From the IMG/VR virus record IMGVR_UViG_3300044695_006617, positions 1-22,963 of that record: a stretch of DNA of 22,963 nt. The stretch is one strand, 5' to 3'. The position numbers and the translations under genes were made by a program. Source of the DNA: a virus. Below, piece by piece: positions 751-13,024 of the stretch. Numbering within the stretch: position 1 is the first letter of the stretch; every line of letters begins with the position of its first letter. The notes below the pieces were generated by a model. It was given only the letters and a program-made list of their open reading frames with translations, did not search any database and was not told the DNA's origin.

Positions 751-1794
751 ATGAAATCCTCTAGATTTATCGTAGCAGCAATCGCTGCATCTTTAATCAT
801 CGCCCAACCAGCCCATGCAGATCAAATTACGGGCTCTGGTTCATCTTTCATTGCTAACTTTATCAATGAATGCCGTGTTCAATATGGAAAAGTCTCTGGA
901 CATAACATAGAATACACACCATTAGGATCAGGCGCAGGAATTAATATGTTTATGCAAAATACTGTTGATTTTGCAGCAAGCGATGTTGCTGCTTCACAAG
1001 TTAATAAAGCAAAAGATTTTGTATATGTTCCACTAGTCGCAGGCCCTATTGCAATTGCATATAGAATTGATGGGTACAAAGGTAAGATTCAATTAAAGAA
1101 AGAAACATTGGCTAAAATTTTTGCAGGGGATATAACAAAATGGAATGATCCTCAAATAATTAAAGATAATACTATAAAGAAAGTAAAGCCAAAACTACCA
1201 AACCTTCAAATCATGGTTTTCTATCGTGCAGATAGTTCAGGAACAACTCAAGTAGTAGCAGAATATCTTAGTGCTATTGCTCCATCAATCTGGACAAAGG
1301 CTCCAAACAAGTCTTTTACACAAGCATTTCCAAAAACTCAATTACCTTTAGGAACTTTTAGTTCTGTTGCTGGAACTAATCTTATGGCATCTCAGGTTGC
1401 AAGTACAAATGGCGCAATAGGATATATGGAATCTTCTTATGCTACAAATCAAAATCTTGCTAAGGCATCTATTGAAAATGGTGCTGGTGTATTTATGCAG
1501 CCTACATCTGAAGCAGCCTCTGCATTCCTAAGTGATTTTGAGCCTGAAGGAAATGGCATCATTGTTCCAAACTATAACAACAAGGATAAGAAGGCTTACA
1601 ACATATCCTCGTTCTCTTATGGCCTAGCACCAACACAAGCAAGCGATAAGGCAAATATAATCAAAGGATTCTTTAAGTATACTGCCACTTCATGCGCTAC
1701 TCTTTCAGCCAAAAAATTGGAATACTCTCCACTTACAGGATCAGCATTGGCTATAGCAAAAGCACAGATTGCATTAATTGGATCTAAGCCTTAA
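751..1794 (+). CDS. pstS: PstS-like periplasmic phosphate-binding protein
   Basis: A 347-residue protein of typical PstS length. It has a Sec signal peptide (residues 1-23, hydrophobic core IVAAIAASLIIA, AHA-DQ cleavage site). It has the family's phosphate-contact loops: TGSGSSF (27-33), LGSGAG (58-63), VDFAASD (72-78) and ADSSGTTQ (160-167). There is no lipobox cysteine, so it should be secreted or periplasmic rather than a lipoprotein. In cells PstS delivers phosphate to the PstCAB transporter; no pstC, pstA or pstB is present here, so it would have to serve the host's transporter. The start is leaderless-type: TGATATTAT with six bases between the hexamer (739-744) and the ATG. As a phage gene it would count as an auxiliary metabolic gene. 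Confidence 0.93.
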   Translation: MKSSRFIVAAIAASLIIAQPAHADQITGSGSSFIANFINECRVQYGKVSGHNIEYTPLGSGAGINMFMQNTVDFAASDVAASQVNKAKDFVYVPLVAGPIAIAYRIDGYKGKIQLKKETLAKIFAGDITKWNDPQIIKDNTIKKVKPKLPNLQIMVFYRADSSGTTQVVAEYLSAIAPSIWTKAPNKSFTQAFPKTQLPLGTFSSVAGTNLMASQVASTNGAIGYMESSYATNQNLAKASIENGAGVFMQPTSEAASAFLSDFEPEGNGIIVPNYNNKDKKAYNISSFSYGLAPTQASDKANIIKGFFKYTATSCATLSAKKLEYSPLTGSALAIAKAQIALIGSKP

Positions 1795-2353: not shown

Positions 2354-2968
2354 TTATATCTTTTTAATCCAATATTGATGATTCATAGCCATTGTTTCTA
2401 GTTGGTCTGTATATTTCTTAACAAATGCTAAAATAGCAGTTTTGGGTCTTAAATAATCAGGCTTTTCATCACCCCAAGCATAGTCATCAAATGCCATAAT
2501 CCCGCCAGTTTTTAGTAATGGCCAAGACAGTTTGGCATCACTTAATACACTGCTGGCAACGTGGTCAGCATCAATATAGATAAAATCATATGTGTTGTTT
2601 TTTTCAGCATTTAAAAAATCAAAGGTTGTTCCTCTTTGGTTATGAACACGGGGAGAGAACTCTTCCATTCTTTTTAAATATAGTTGATAGACATCTTCAA
2701 AATCATAATTGTCATGTACATCACTTTCAGCAGATGATCCTAACCAAGTATCAACATCTGTTAAATGTGAGGTTTCATGAGTCAGTACATGATTTAATAG
2801 CCAATCGCTGGTATCTCCAGTAAATACTCCTAATTGAAGATAATTTAGATTAGGTTTGTCTTTATACTGGGATAAATGTTCTTCAAAGTTGTATTCACCT
2901 GTGTATGAAAACCAGTTGGGATAATGCCCTTTACCAAACTTTGTTCCTAGCCAACCAGTATTAGACAT
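2354..2968 (-). CDS. Class I SAM-dependent methyltransferase
   Basis: A 204-residue protein with the Rossmann methyltransferase signature: glycine motif I in YLQLGVFTGDTSDWLL (44-58), motif II-like YDFIYIDADH (127-136), and GGIMAFDDYAW (155-165). This resembles the small stand-alone Methyltransf_24-type family, whose members often act on sugars or small molecules. The substrate cannot be read from sequence. The start has the leaderless layout TGA-TATACT, six bases, ATG. Upstream lies the gene-free AT-rich region, so its promoter sits at the edge of the candidate origin. Confidence 0.8.
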   Translation of the reverse strand: MSNTGWLGTKFGKGHYPNWFSYTGEYNFEEHLSQYKDKPNLNYLQLGVFTGDTSDWLLNHVLTHETSHLTDVDTWLGSSAESDVHDNYDFEDVYQLYLKRMEEFSPRVHNQRGTTFDFLNAEKNNTYDFIYIDADHVASSVLSDAKLSWPLLKTGGIMAFDDYAWGDEKPDYLRPKTAILAFVKKYTDQLETMAMNHQYWIKKI

Positions 2969-2983
2969 AAAAATAGTATATCA

Positions 2984-3874
2984 GGTTTTTTCGGGGGAAG
3001 TAAAGAAAGACCCTTATTACCCCTATAAGAACATAGCCCCAATAGCCCCTATATCCCCAGTAGCAGATACTCTGGATACCGTCGAAAATAAAAGTTATAC
3101 ACAGGTTTGGTAATGGTTTTTATGGTTTGATATTATAGTTATCCACAGGTTTATCCACAATTAAATCTTACTAAGTGGGGAAATATGGTTTTGTAGTGGA
3201 GCAAAGTGGAGGATAATGGAGTATAGAACATTTTAATATAAGATCATAATATCTTTTACCAAACCTTCAAACCCCAAACCATCATATCCCAAACCATAAA
3301 ACCTTATATCCCAAACCCCATATCCCCCATATCACAGATATAAAGGTTTGTCAAGTTGCCAAATATGTATAACAATTTGGTAACAAATTTCAGGATATTT
3401 TAAAGTATTTCGTAATAAAATTATATAAAGGTTTGATAATCAGGGAAAAAGATTTATATTTCGTAATGTTTTATATAGGGGTATTTATGATAGGTGGTTT
3501 GATATATCCCGTGAAATATTTAGCCCCTTCGTAAACTTCGGGGAAAAATTTTGGTCCTTCGTAAAGAAAGTTATAGGATTATTTTTTGTTTGCCCGACGG
3601 GACTTAAAGAAAGAAATTATATAACCAATACCAGTATACTTCAAAACCTTACATATAAAGGTTTGACGGTTTGAGGGTTTTTTCAAGGGATCGTAATGCT
3701 TATCAGACATATAATAAGGACCAAAGGTAGCCTTGGTAAAATGTCTTGGACTCATAACTATATTATAACATGAGGTTTTATGGTTTGGGGAAATATAATG
3801 GTTCTTCGTAAAGAAGGTTTGATGGTTTTATGGTTTTGGATATAAGGTTTGATATGTGTTACATGTGAAAATGT
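2984..3874. other. Gene-free AT-rich repeat region, candidate replication origin
   Basis: About 890 bases with no convincing reading frame on either strand. It holds three DnaA-box matches near its left end. It also has many dispersed copies of GGTTTG(A), several as ATAAAGGTTTGA (about 3339, 3425, 3654), and the opposite-strand form CAAACC/AAACCTT around 3258-3320. TTCGTAA recurs about five times (3412, 3461, 3528, 3557, 3804). The combination of AT-richness, DnaA boxes and iterated short motifs is what a theta-type or host-DnaA-assisted origin looks like. No function is proven. Confidence 0.5.
3095..3159 (+). promoter_or_regulatory. Cluster of three DnaA-box-like sequences
   Basis: TTATACACA at 3095-3103 and TTATCCACA at 3139-3147 and 3151-3159 all match the bacterial DnaA box TTATNCACA. 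The last two are head to tail with a three-base gap (12-base pitch). All are in the same orientation. Confidence 0.6.
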
Positions 3875-3897
3875 TGCCCCCCGAAGGGGGCTATTTT
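3875..3897. terminator. TTCG-loop hairpin, likely terminator of the 4372-3898 unit
   Basis: A GCCCCC/GGGGGC stem (3875-3880 with 86-91) closed by a short CCGAA loop lies just after the stop of the gene ending at 3898. The T-run (CTATTTTTTA) is on the plus-strand side, so the element may also block rightward transcription out of the candidate origin. An ACATGTGA palindrome lies immediately beyond it at 3861-3868. Confidence 0.6.
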
Positions 3898-4173
3898 TTA
3901 TTCTTCTGTTGTTTCTATGAACTGCAGCATATCCTCTATGGTTTCATAGTTTCCTTCTGGATCTACACCCATAGCAGAAATTAATAGGTCATAGGTTTCT
4001 TCAATATATATTTCGCCTTCTTTATTCATTGTTACTAAACCCGTATGGACCAGGTGTGCAATAGGCAGCCCAATATCATTGTAGTCTGCAAACTCTTTAA
4101 ACTGATCTTCATCACGATAGTTTAAGTATAGGTCTGCTAGTACCGCAATCTTATTGTTTAGTTCGTTAATCAT
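3898..4173 (-). CDS. 91-aa conserved-type acidic phage protein
   Basis: The ATG at 4173 is preceded by AGGAGATCC, a strong Shine-Dalgarno, and overlaps the upstream stop by eight bases (ATGATTAA). The protein is helical and acidic (ending IEDMLQFIETTEE), with no cysteines or transmembrane segment. It resembles the many short uncharacterised early proteins of actinophages, but no domain name can be given. Followed by the hairpin at 3875-3897. Confidence 0.7.
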   Translation of the reverse strand: MINELNNKIAVLADLYLNYRDEDQFKEFADYNDIGLPIAHLVHTGLVTMNKEGEIYIEETYDLLISAMGVDPEGNYETIEDMLQFIETTEE

Positions 4174-11654: not shown

Positions 11655-11776
11655 AGTCTAGCCTAAGCCACTGACAAACACCAATCCAAAATGGGGATAA
11701 ATCGGACATTTCTTAAATTAGTTTTGTGAGATAGCCCACATAAGTTATCCACAAGGTTATCCACAATCACATGTGT
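11655..11776 (-). promoter_or_regulatory. Control region of the 11621 operon, with two DnaA-type boxes
   Basis: On the plus strand: TGTGAGATAGCCCACA (11725-11740, CRP/GlxR-like), TTATCCACA twice (11745-11753 and 11757-11765, 12-base pitch), and ACATGTGT (11769-11776). On the minus strand: AATGTCCGATTTAT (11710-11697), TGTCAG (11676-11671), 10 bases, TAGACT (11660-11655), then a leader with AACAACAACGAAGGG. Confidence 0.6.
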
Positions 11777-11815
11777 GCGACACGCCCGAGTGCGTTACAT
11801 TGAAATATAAGGGTT

Positions 11816-12001
11816 TTATAACTCCAATATTTCTTGTGGTGGTGCGTCGCTATATACATACTTTAGATTTATTAAATCTATATAGCGAAAGCCACTCACT
11901 AGAGATTGTTCACCGCAAGAGATACAAGTCCTATCCCAAGAGTCCTGACCAAAATTACAATCAGGACAATACGCACACGCACTATCTAATTTATATTTCA
12001 T
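11816..12001 (-). CDS. 61-aa zinc-ribbon protein
   Basis: The N-terminal half has CAYCPDC (residues 9-15) and CISCGE (26-31), a four-cysteine zinc ribbon, followed by a tail (ending DAPPQEILEL). The ATG at 12001 overlaps the previous stop as ATGA. Last gene of the 12445-to-11816 operon. Confidence 0.7.
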   Translation of the reverse strand: MKYKLDSACAYCPDCNFGQDSWDRTCISCGEQSLVSGFRYIDLINLKYVYSDAPPQEILEL

Positions 12002-12108
12002 TCATCCCACCCATATTTCTCAGCCCTTAGCAATAAGCCAAAGGCTAGTACGCCAGCAAGCGCAACAAGTCCAGCAGATACGAAAGATATTAGAGCCCAA
12101 TAGTTCAT
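11998..12108 (-). CDS. 36-aa single-helix membrane protein
   Basis: MNYWALISFVSAGLVALAGV continues as a hydrophobic helix, then LLLRAEKYGWDE. It is locked between neighbours by a TAATG junction upstream and ATGA downstream, which supports translation. Function unknown. Confidence 0.6.
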   Translation of the reverse strand: MNYWALISFVSAGLVALAGVLAFGLLLRAEKYGWDE

Positions 12109-12266
12109 TATTTACACGCCTTTTCAAATAGTTCGGAATTAAAATTGGAATTATCTCTCTCAAAGAAATCAGAGAAATCCATTATCAAAGTTTCAAGTAC
12201 GCCAGCAGGCATATCAGTATTTTTTAGAATATCTGCTACCTCTTGGTAGTGTTTGCGTGTCATCAT
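12108..12266 (-). CDS. 52-aa paralogue of the protein at 11433-11621
   Basis: It begins MMTRKHYQEVADILKNTDMP; the shared core is LETLIMDFSDFFERDNSNFN. Both copies keep the MMTRK start and the (F/E)KAC-type end, but this one lacks the last ten residues. ATG shares a base with the preceding stop (TAATG). The two copies sit in neighbouring operons. Confidence 0.7.
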   Translation of the reverse strand: MMTRKHYQEVADILKNTDMPAGVLETLIMDFSDFFERDNSNFNSELFEKACK

Positions 12267-12445
12267 TATTTAGATACCTCCCATTTTGACCAACGACCTA
12301 AGCGGTCACTATCAAAGTCAATATAGAAGGACTCGATATTTTGTTCACACTCTATACAGAAAGTATAGGCAACCTCATCAACGATAGAGATAGCACTCTT
12401 GAAAGGAGTATGGGTATGGATTTTGTTTATTGTTAATGTAGTCAT
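12266..12445 (-). CDS. 59-aa hypothetical protein with CIEC knuckle
   Basis: The ATG at 12445 (MTTLTINKIHTHTPF) has AAAGGTGGTCA upstream; an ATG three codons earlier is worse placed. A CIEC pair near residue 30 plus histidines at 10 and 12 could bind metal. The first five codons and the leader are nearly identical to those of the gene at 12704, although the proteins differ afterwards. Confidence 0.7.
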   Translation of the reverse strand: MTTLTINKIHTHTPFKSAISIVDEVAYTFCIECEQNIESFYIDFDSDRLGRWSKWEVSK

Positions 12446-12479
12446 ATTGACCACCTTTCTTTTTTGTTGTTATGGTGTA

Positions 12480-12545
12480 AGTCTAGCAGAGGGGTCTGAC
12501 ATTTAAGCCCATTTTGGACTCGTGTCGGGTGTGTTACTGATCACA
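12480..12545 (-). promoter_or_regulatory. Promoter of the 12445 operon
   Basis: TGTCAG (12501-12496), 10 bases, TAGACT (12485-12480), leader with AACAACAA then GAAAGGTGG. A CRP-like TGTGT-N6-TCACA (plus 12530-12545) overlaps the 3' end of the upstream gene. Confidence 0.55.
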
Positions 12546-12704
12546 CTCGCAAGGCTCATAAGGGTCAAACTCGCAATAGTAGCAACCTTGCGCCTCGAAA
12601 TGCTTTTCGCAATAGTGGCGGTATTGAACCTCGTCGCAGTGGGTGAATTGGGTGTAATCGGTTAAATAGTACCGATTTAGGGGCATTAGGATTAATGTAG
12701 TCAT
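12534..12704 (-). CDS. 56-aa cysteine-rich zinc-binding protein
   Basis: It begins MTTLILMPLNRYYLTDYTQF, followed by HCDEVQYRHYCEKHFEAQG, then CYYC and CEC: six cysteines plus histidines, enough for one or two zinc sites. The start ATG at 12704 follows GAAAGGTGGTCAAA. The promoter is TGTCAG (12756-12751), 10 bases, TATAAT (12740-12735). The stop codon lies within a CRP-like site of the next operon. Function unknown. Confidence 0.7.
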   Translation of the reverse strand: MTTLILMPLNRYYLTDYTQFTHCDEVQYRHYCEKHFEAQGCYYCEFDPYEPCECDQ

Positions 12705-13024
12705 TTTGACCACCTTTCTTGTTGTTATAGTTTTATTATAACAGGCACCACTGACATTTGCAGTTGTTATGTCAAGTAATTATCAGACAAATCGGACAAC
12801 TCTCAATGTGTGTTACATCACATAGCACAAATCGGACATTTCGGGCGCCGACATGTGAATCGACATGTGATGTCCGTTTTGCCCTAGTTTGTTATGTGAG
12901 GTACATTACACTTTTGCAAAATGTCCGAAATCGCCCGATTCTCGATTTGAGAATGTCAGTCGGTTTGTGTATAATTCAGGGTATAAGGAAGTTAGGGAAA
13001 GTCCCTAAACTAGAAAGGCTTAAA
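12705..13024. promoter_or_regulatory. Bidirectional control region between leftward and rightward operons
   Basis: No gene seen. It holds promoters in both directions: minus TGTCAG-10-TATAAT at 12756-12735; plus TTGAGA (12947-12952)-17-TATAAT (12970-12975), with TGTCAG at 12954-12959, again 10 bases before the -10. It also holds two CRP/GlxR-like 16-mers (12807-12822, 12895-12910) and two ACATGTGA palindromes (12851-12858, 12863-12870). AATGTCC-type boxes point both ways (minus 12800-12787 and 12840-12827; plus 12869-12882 and 12920-12933). It looks like the central switch of this gene cluster. Confidence 0.65.

Follow-up and report, generated by a model that had tools for sequence, protein, structure and literature searches.

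We describe a conserved viral module in which DnaA boxes are paired with an MraZ-type operator, identified in a linear virus record of 22,963 bp that represents a fragment (here, the window). The best single reading of this locus, to which we assign a probability of roughly 52%, is that it is a replication origin at which a clade of virulent, large freshwater actinophages would use the DnaA and MraZ proteins of their hosts. The putative DnaA and MraZ binding sites are well supported as sequence elements, and we put origin function of the module, considered by itself and judged from the DNA, at about even odds. A host-DnaA-assisted origin had been proposed here in the original prediction; a conserved module present in single copy, together with a phage-encoded DnaB and no phage-encoded DnaA, argues for that part of the proposal, while GC skew does not.

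Sequence elements of the window

The original prediction placed DnaA boxes, iterated GGTTTGA with inverted copies, and recurring TTCGTAA in positions 2984 to 3874, and all of these elements were recovered. One TTATACACA box (3095 to 3103) and two TTATCCACA boxes (3139 to 3147 and 3151 to 3159) are all located on the plus strand, the latter as a tandem pair 12 bp apart from start to start; an upstream box at a similar distance is also present in loci L007 and L011. Exact TTATNCACA occurs six times in the whole 23-kb window versus 1.6 expected, and none of the shuffles gave six. Beginning 5 bp past the second box of the pair are three DnaA-trio-like triplets, ATC-TTA-CTA (3165 to 3173, plus strand), followed by a spacer (3174 to 3195, plus strand) that is AT rich in the family and more divergent in the window copy. 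The unwinding module from which the trio motif definition is taken consists of a DnaA-box pair, a spacer of 0 to 16 bp, and, on the other strand, three or more N-A-N trios (PMC8287927). The window has tandem DnaA boxes, one or two of which are required for basal unwinding, and within 0 to 16 bp it has three triplets when read as NTN on the top strand, which is the required minimum; the run in the family is mostly six to eight, with a median of six.

Three MraZ boxes with a 10-bp period, GTGGAG-caaa-GTGGAG-gata-ATGGAG, are located at 3196 to 3221 (plus strand), separated from the DnaA pair by 36 bp, and the fourth-box position contains GAAC (3226 to 3229, plus strand). Shuffles gave a chance expectation of zero for the triple repeat RTGGAG-N4-RTGGAG-N4-RTGGAG; this 10-bp repeat, which the original prediction had missed, is what makes the locus unusual. 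MraZ sites consist of three or four 7-nt repeats with 3-nt spacers, to which MraZ binds as a ring-shaped oligomer (PMC7761207), and the repeats at 3196 to 3221 have the same form, with three direct 7-nt copies, a GTGG core, and 3-nt spacers. We scanned one genome per species from 84,980 species for GTGGAG-N3R-GTGGAG-N3R-GTGGAG; among the 151 matches listed, 78 immediately precede an ORF carrying the D-x-K-x-R signature of MraZ, and simple tandem repeats account for most of the remainder. In bacterial genomes the operator pattern is, among these listed matches, almost confined to the region upstream of mraZ. A similar pattern was present in 71 genomes of a class-wide sample of 297, nearly always as a single copy, and a profile derived from the phage boxes scored mraZ promoters far above shuffles. 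We consider it very likely that positions 3196 to 3221 represent an MraZ-type operator. An MraZ gene was found in none of 20 related records and none of the ORFs downstream is a dcw gene, so this operator is out of its usual place and is not a dcw control region. It resembles the dcw-operon operator in its three 7-nt repeats, 3-nt spacers, and AGTGGAG core, and it differs in lacking a downstream mraZ or dcw gene, in its location beside DnaA boxes, and in being carried by a phage. Separately, a DnaA-box-like sequence, TTAT[CT]AACA, abuts the MraZ boxes of four Bacteroidales/Flavobacteria mraZ promoters (L262, L280, L285, and L286), and DnaA-MraZ juxtaposition may thus occur outside phages.

The remainder of the region is an inverted-repeat field composed of a near arm of CAAACC (3257 to 3322, plus strand) and a far arm of GGTTTG(A) (3343 to 3852, plus strand). 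GGTTTGA occurs 13 times in the whole window versus 3.5 expected, with 8 copies in 2984 to 3874, and TTCGTAA occurs 9 times versus 2.9 expected, with 5 copies in 2984 to 3874 that are interspersed in the GGTTTG(A) array (at 3409, 3460, 3528, 3558, and 3805), all on the plus strand. The region is AT rich as originally described, but it is not free of genes: a 58-aa ORF lies within the repeat field on the minus strand (3579 to 3755) and has a leaderless-type start, TATAAT-N6-ATG. Sequence matches to this ORF were found in only 3 loci, and the small minus-strand ORFs at its place in other loci look different by eye. Just beyond the field, a terminator-like hairpin, GCCCCCCGAAGGGGGC, with a T run (3876 to 3899, plus strand) is present in the window and in L007 only; other loci lack it, and we rejected a conserved terminator at the right end.

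Conservation and single-copy occurrence of the module

When we searched for TTACTGAT with two MraZ boxes after it, 97 distinct viral loci remained among the matches listed once duplicates were removed. The order of elements in the module is tandem DnaA boxes, 5 bp, triplets of the type ATC-TTA-CTG, AT-rich DNA, and two or three MraZ boxes, the right part being formed by some 800 bp of repeats, in which TCGTAAT is directional and CAAACC/GGTTTG is inverted. When the 97 loci among the matches listed are mapped with TTACT as zero, DnaA boxes are confined to -100 to 0 in a single orientation, NTN triplets begin at -3 and run to about +17, MraZ boxes are at about +25 to +60, TCGTAAT, always in the same orientation, spans about +60 to +850, CAAACC lies mostly in the first 200 bp, and GGTTTG extends from about +100 to +850, with the repeat field stopping abruptly at about +850 to +900. 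Each record of 95 to 119 kb contains a single site; where matches to the gapped pattern overlapped, they were counted as one. In one genome (G010, locus L457) all copies of the repeat, 18 in number, have changed to CAAACA/TGTTTG and CAAACC is absent, and this concerted switch fits sites that pair together or that coevolve with a binding factor.

The scan required TTACTGAT and two boxes, and we therefore did not count the conservation of these letters as evidence. The independent test was an earlier scan in which the DnaA pair was the sole requirement and which gave 121 distinct pairs among the matches listed, of which 27 have TTACT at +5 together with MraZ boxes, 2 have TTACT only, 0 have MraZ boxes only, and 92 have neither. 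With at least 121 distinct pairs, DnaA-box pairs in phages are numerous, and the idea that DnaA-box clusters are uncommon in phages does not hold.

Among the matches listed, the NTN triplets start 5 nt past the second box in 56 loci and one triplet earlier in 21, and in 70% of loci the triplet run exceeds that in shuffles of the same locus at P < 0.05, although the loci are related to one another and the first positions belonged to the search pattern. The fraction of T at the middle position of successive triplets is 1.0, 1.0, 1.0, 0.95, 0.88, 0.78, and 0.73 and then falls to 0.23, a profile that is free of search bias only past +7, where first positions are also fairly T rich. The module is similar to the basal unwinding system of bacterial oriC in its tandem boxes, 5-bp spacing, and, in most members, 6 to 8 NTN triplets, but the phage triplets are conserved as ATC-TTA-CTG rather than as repeated CTA, and MraZ boxes and a long repeat field are added. 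A further difference is that 18 of the 97 modules among the matches listed have no DnaA boxes within 45 nt while retaining the triplets and MraZ boxes, and thus either DnaA is dispensable or the triplets serve another role; this retention is evidence against a purely DnaA-based reading. In two small actinobacterial genomes, TTATCCACA pairs are found 11 to 12 bp apart around dnaA, a phage-like spacing. We rejected the possibility that the module is a copy of a host oriC, since these two dnaA regions have the same box sequence and 11- to 12-bp spacing as the phages but lack ATCTTACTGAT.

The DnaA part alone is already known from phages: the terminal repeats of T5-like phages also have tandem DnaA boxes in noncoding DNA, but the match is limited to that part, and MraZ boxes are absent. 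By DNA comparison, the whole module had no relatives in 50,697 INPHARED phage records or 72,556 PLSDB plasmid records, and literature titles on MraZ with phage and operator contained no DnaA-MraZ pairing. What appears to be new is that DnaA boxes and an MraZ operator form a conserved pair, for which we found no match in the literature and the annotated phage and plasmid collections that we searched.

Gene content and probable hosts

The closest relative of the window (L007, in the 44-kb record G001) is 90 to 97% identical across most of the shared DNA. The window encodes DUF932 and GP88 proteins, and the cultured relatives of the DUF932 protein are mostly from Mycobacterium and Streptomyces phages (best identity, ∼52%); the predicted genes therefore point to an actinobacterial phage. 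An mraZ promoter form that is common among 26 small actinobacterial genomes (1.0 to 1.5 Mb), which from their size and GC content would be mostly Nanopelagicales, resembles AAAGTGGAGTAAAGTGGGGAATTAAGCG. The fourth-box position is RAGC in 60 of the 97 phage loci among the matches listed and in 14 of the 26 small actinobacterial mraZ promoters, versus 0 of 72 other mraZ promoters. This shared feature, a further likeness between the phage boxes and the dcw-operon operator, supports small freshwater-type actinobacteria as hosts.

DnaB is encoded in 12 of 19 related records, including all of those of at least 76 kb, and the Pfam matches of one large relative (G004) include a DnaB-type helicase, DnaG-type primase domains, and RecA. 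DnaA, integrase (PF00589), and the ParA-like ATPase family AAA_31 (PF13614) were each found in 0 of 19 related records; the records may be fragments, yet the size of the large ones gives meaning to these absences and to that of MraZ. No Rep protein was among the families listed for the G004 ORFs of at least 120 aa and for the ORFs near the module, with seven families unlisted.

A gene for a 91-aa protein (3898 to 4173, minus strand) has homologues beside the module in 84 loci among the matches listed, always on the same side and strand relative to the module. The protein conserves a YNDIGLP motif and has a confident all-helical model whose fold matches are insignificant and mostly to XRE-type HTH proteins; it is acidic, and thus we do not claim a DNA-binding role for it. 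The gene to the left of the module is variable, being a methyltransferase in the window (2354 to 2968, minus strand), a different ORF in L007, and others elsewhere. The window also contains a gene for a PBP_like_2 (PstS-type phosphate-binding) protein at 751 to 1794 (plus strand), which is likely an auxiliary metabolic gene.

Proposed origin function, alternatives, and implications

With a phage helicase and primase encoded and phage DnaA absent, a site opened by host DnaA is the simplest reading. Host DnaA would bind the tandem boxes and spread onto the DnaA-trio-like triplets 5 bp away, and the AT-rich stretch would then open. A ring oligomer of host MraZ would bind the three 10-bp boxes across this stretch, in the position occupied by Rep-bound iterons in plasmids, where it may shape or time opening, and the phage DnaB-type helicase and DnaG-type primase would then be loaded. 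The 800-bp CAAACC/GGTTTG field and the directional TCGTAAT may bind a phage factor that gives control or direction. The role of MraZ could be architectural or regulatory, or its boxes could be a mere result of titration. That it is a true phage replication factor, taking a Rep-like place beside DnaA-opened DNA and tying replication to the division state of the host, is a tentative suggestion that we think somewhat doubtful. Counting against the origin reading, large DNA phages mostly rely on their own initiators or on recombination.

GC skew does not mark the module. The cumulative minimum of the window, a check proposed in the original prediction, is near 12 kb rather than 3 kb, and we rejected GC skew as an origin signal since it tracks gene direction and has its minimum at a divergent region. 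In ten large relatives (G004 to G013), third-position coding-strand GC skew is positive to the left of the module and mostly negative 0 to 40 kb to its right; the sign changes on both coding strands, making it a regional rather than a replication signal. A GC-skew switch of the kind expected of a replication origin was therefore not seen at the module. A second tandem DnaA pair, TTATCCACAAGGTTATCCACA (11745 to 11765, plus strand), which the original prediction had also missed, has no MraZ boxes and lies in the region of divergent transcription close to the skew minimum; it may be a regulatory site or another origin. Nearby are TCGGACA/TGTCCG and ACATGTGA repeats (11700 to 12960) and, where the rightward gene block begins, a sigma-70-like promoter, TTGAGA-N17-TATAAT (12943 to 12972); a TTATACACA match at 12966 on the minus strand belongs to the -10 element of this promoter, and we rejected it as part of an origin.

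An alternative that is unlikely but deserves consideration is that multiplying phage copies of the locus act as a decoy, soaking up host DnaA and MraZ and thereby delaying host replication and freeing the dcw operon. Sites for two host cell-cycle regulators adjoin, the related records encode neither regulator, and a host genome has essentially one MraZ-type operator, such that phage copies would outnumber it. The datA locus titrates DnaA in Escherichia coli, and the module resembles it and other DnaA titration sites in having extra DnaA boxes outside the chromosome origin. Unlike such sites, however, the phage locus has few boxes (just 2 or 3 per genome at the module), a strict architecture, and a second regulator; titration needs no fixed order, spacing, orientation, or triplet motif, and it leaves the 800-bp repeat field unexplained.

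It is distinctly improbable that the locus is instead a captured host mraZ promoter, controlled by MraZ, that drives a rightward noncoding transcript through the repeat field, in which the CAAACC and GGTTTG arms would fold into a structured RNA, possibly also serving as a replication primer. The likeness to host mraZ promoters does extend past the boxes, TCGTAAT has only one orientation, the window gives a folding z score of about -3.7, and the hairpin at its right end is terminator-like. Against this, the terminator is missing from other loci, -35 and -10 elements are not conserved by inspection, a minus-strand ORF sits within the field, and the DnaA boxes would be unexplained. A structured RNA was rejected since both strands fold about equally and better than shuffles, as inverted repeats would, and an Rfam search of the window recovered only two tRNAs, with no match at the repeat field.

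The module can also be compared with the origins of iteron plasmids, which combine DnaA boxes, AT-rich DNA, and short direct repeats (PMC4980987), all of which the window contains. Like RK2 oriV, P1 oriR, and pSC101, it has these elements in a compact cis region, but the phage repeats are boxes for host MraZ rather than sites for an element-encoded Rep, and no Rep gene was recognized adjoining them. The phage-plasmid lifestyle raised in the original prediction is unsupported, with neither integrase nor a ParA-like ATPase in the 19 related records. A role in the partition or maintenance of a phage-plasmid, in which the repeats would act as a centromere, would fit directional iterated motifs at one copy per genome, but these absences, and the fact that none of 72,556 plasmids matched the module, make it very improbable. 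Chance DnaA boxes and drifting repeats in spacer DNA, as the AT-rich, repetitive character of the region might suggest, are refuted by the motif excess over shuffles and by the order, spacing, and orientation conserved in the 97 loci among the matches listed.

The locus has several implications. MraZ is very widespread in bacteria, and its role beyond regulation of its own operon is poorly understood; an MraZ-dependent phage locus, if true, would test that role directly. The locus is common to many lake viruses and could mark phages of small freshwater actinobacteria. Members of the order Nanopelagicales lack CRISPR-Cas, and their phages are hence hard to assign (PMC10202952). Finally, the module suggests that these phages may start DNA copying with borrowed host cell-cycle proteins, namely, DnaA and the division regulator MraZ.
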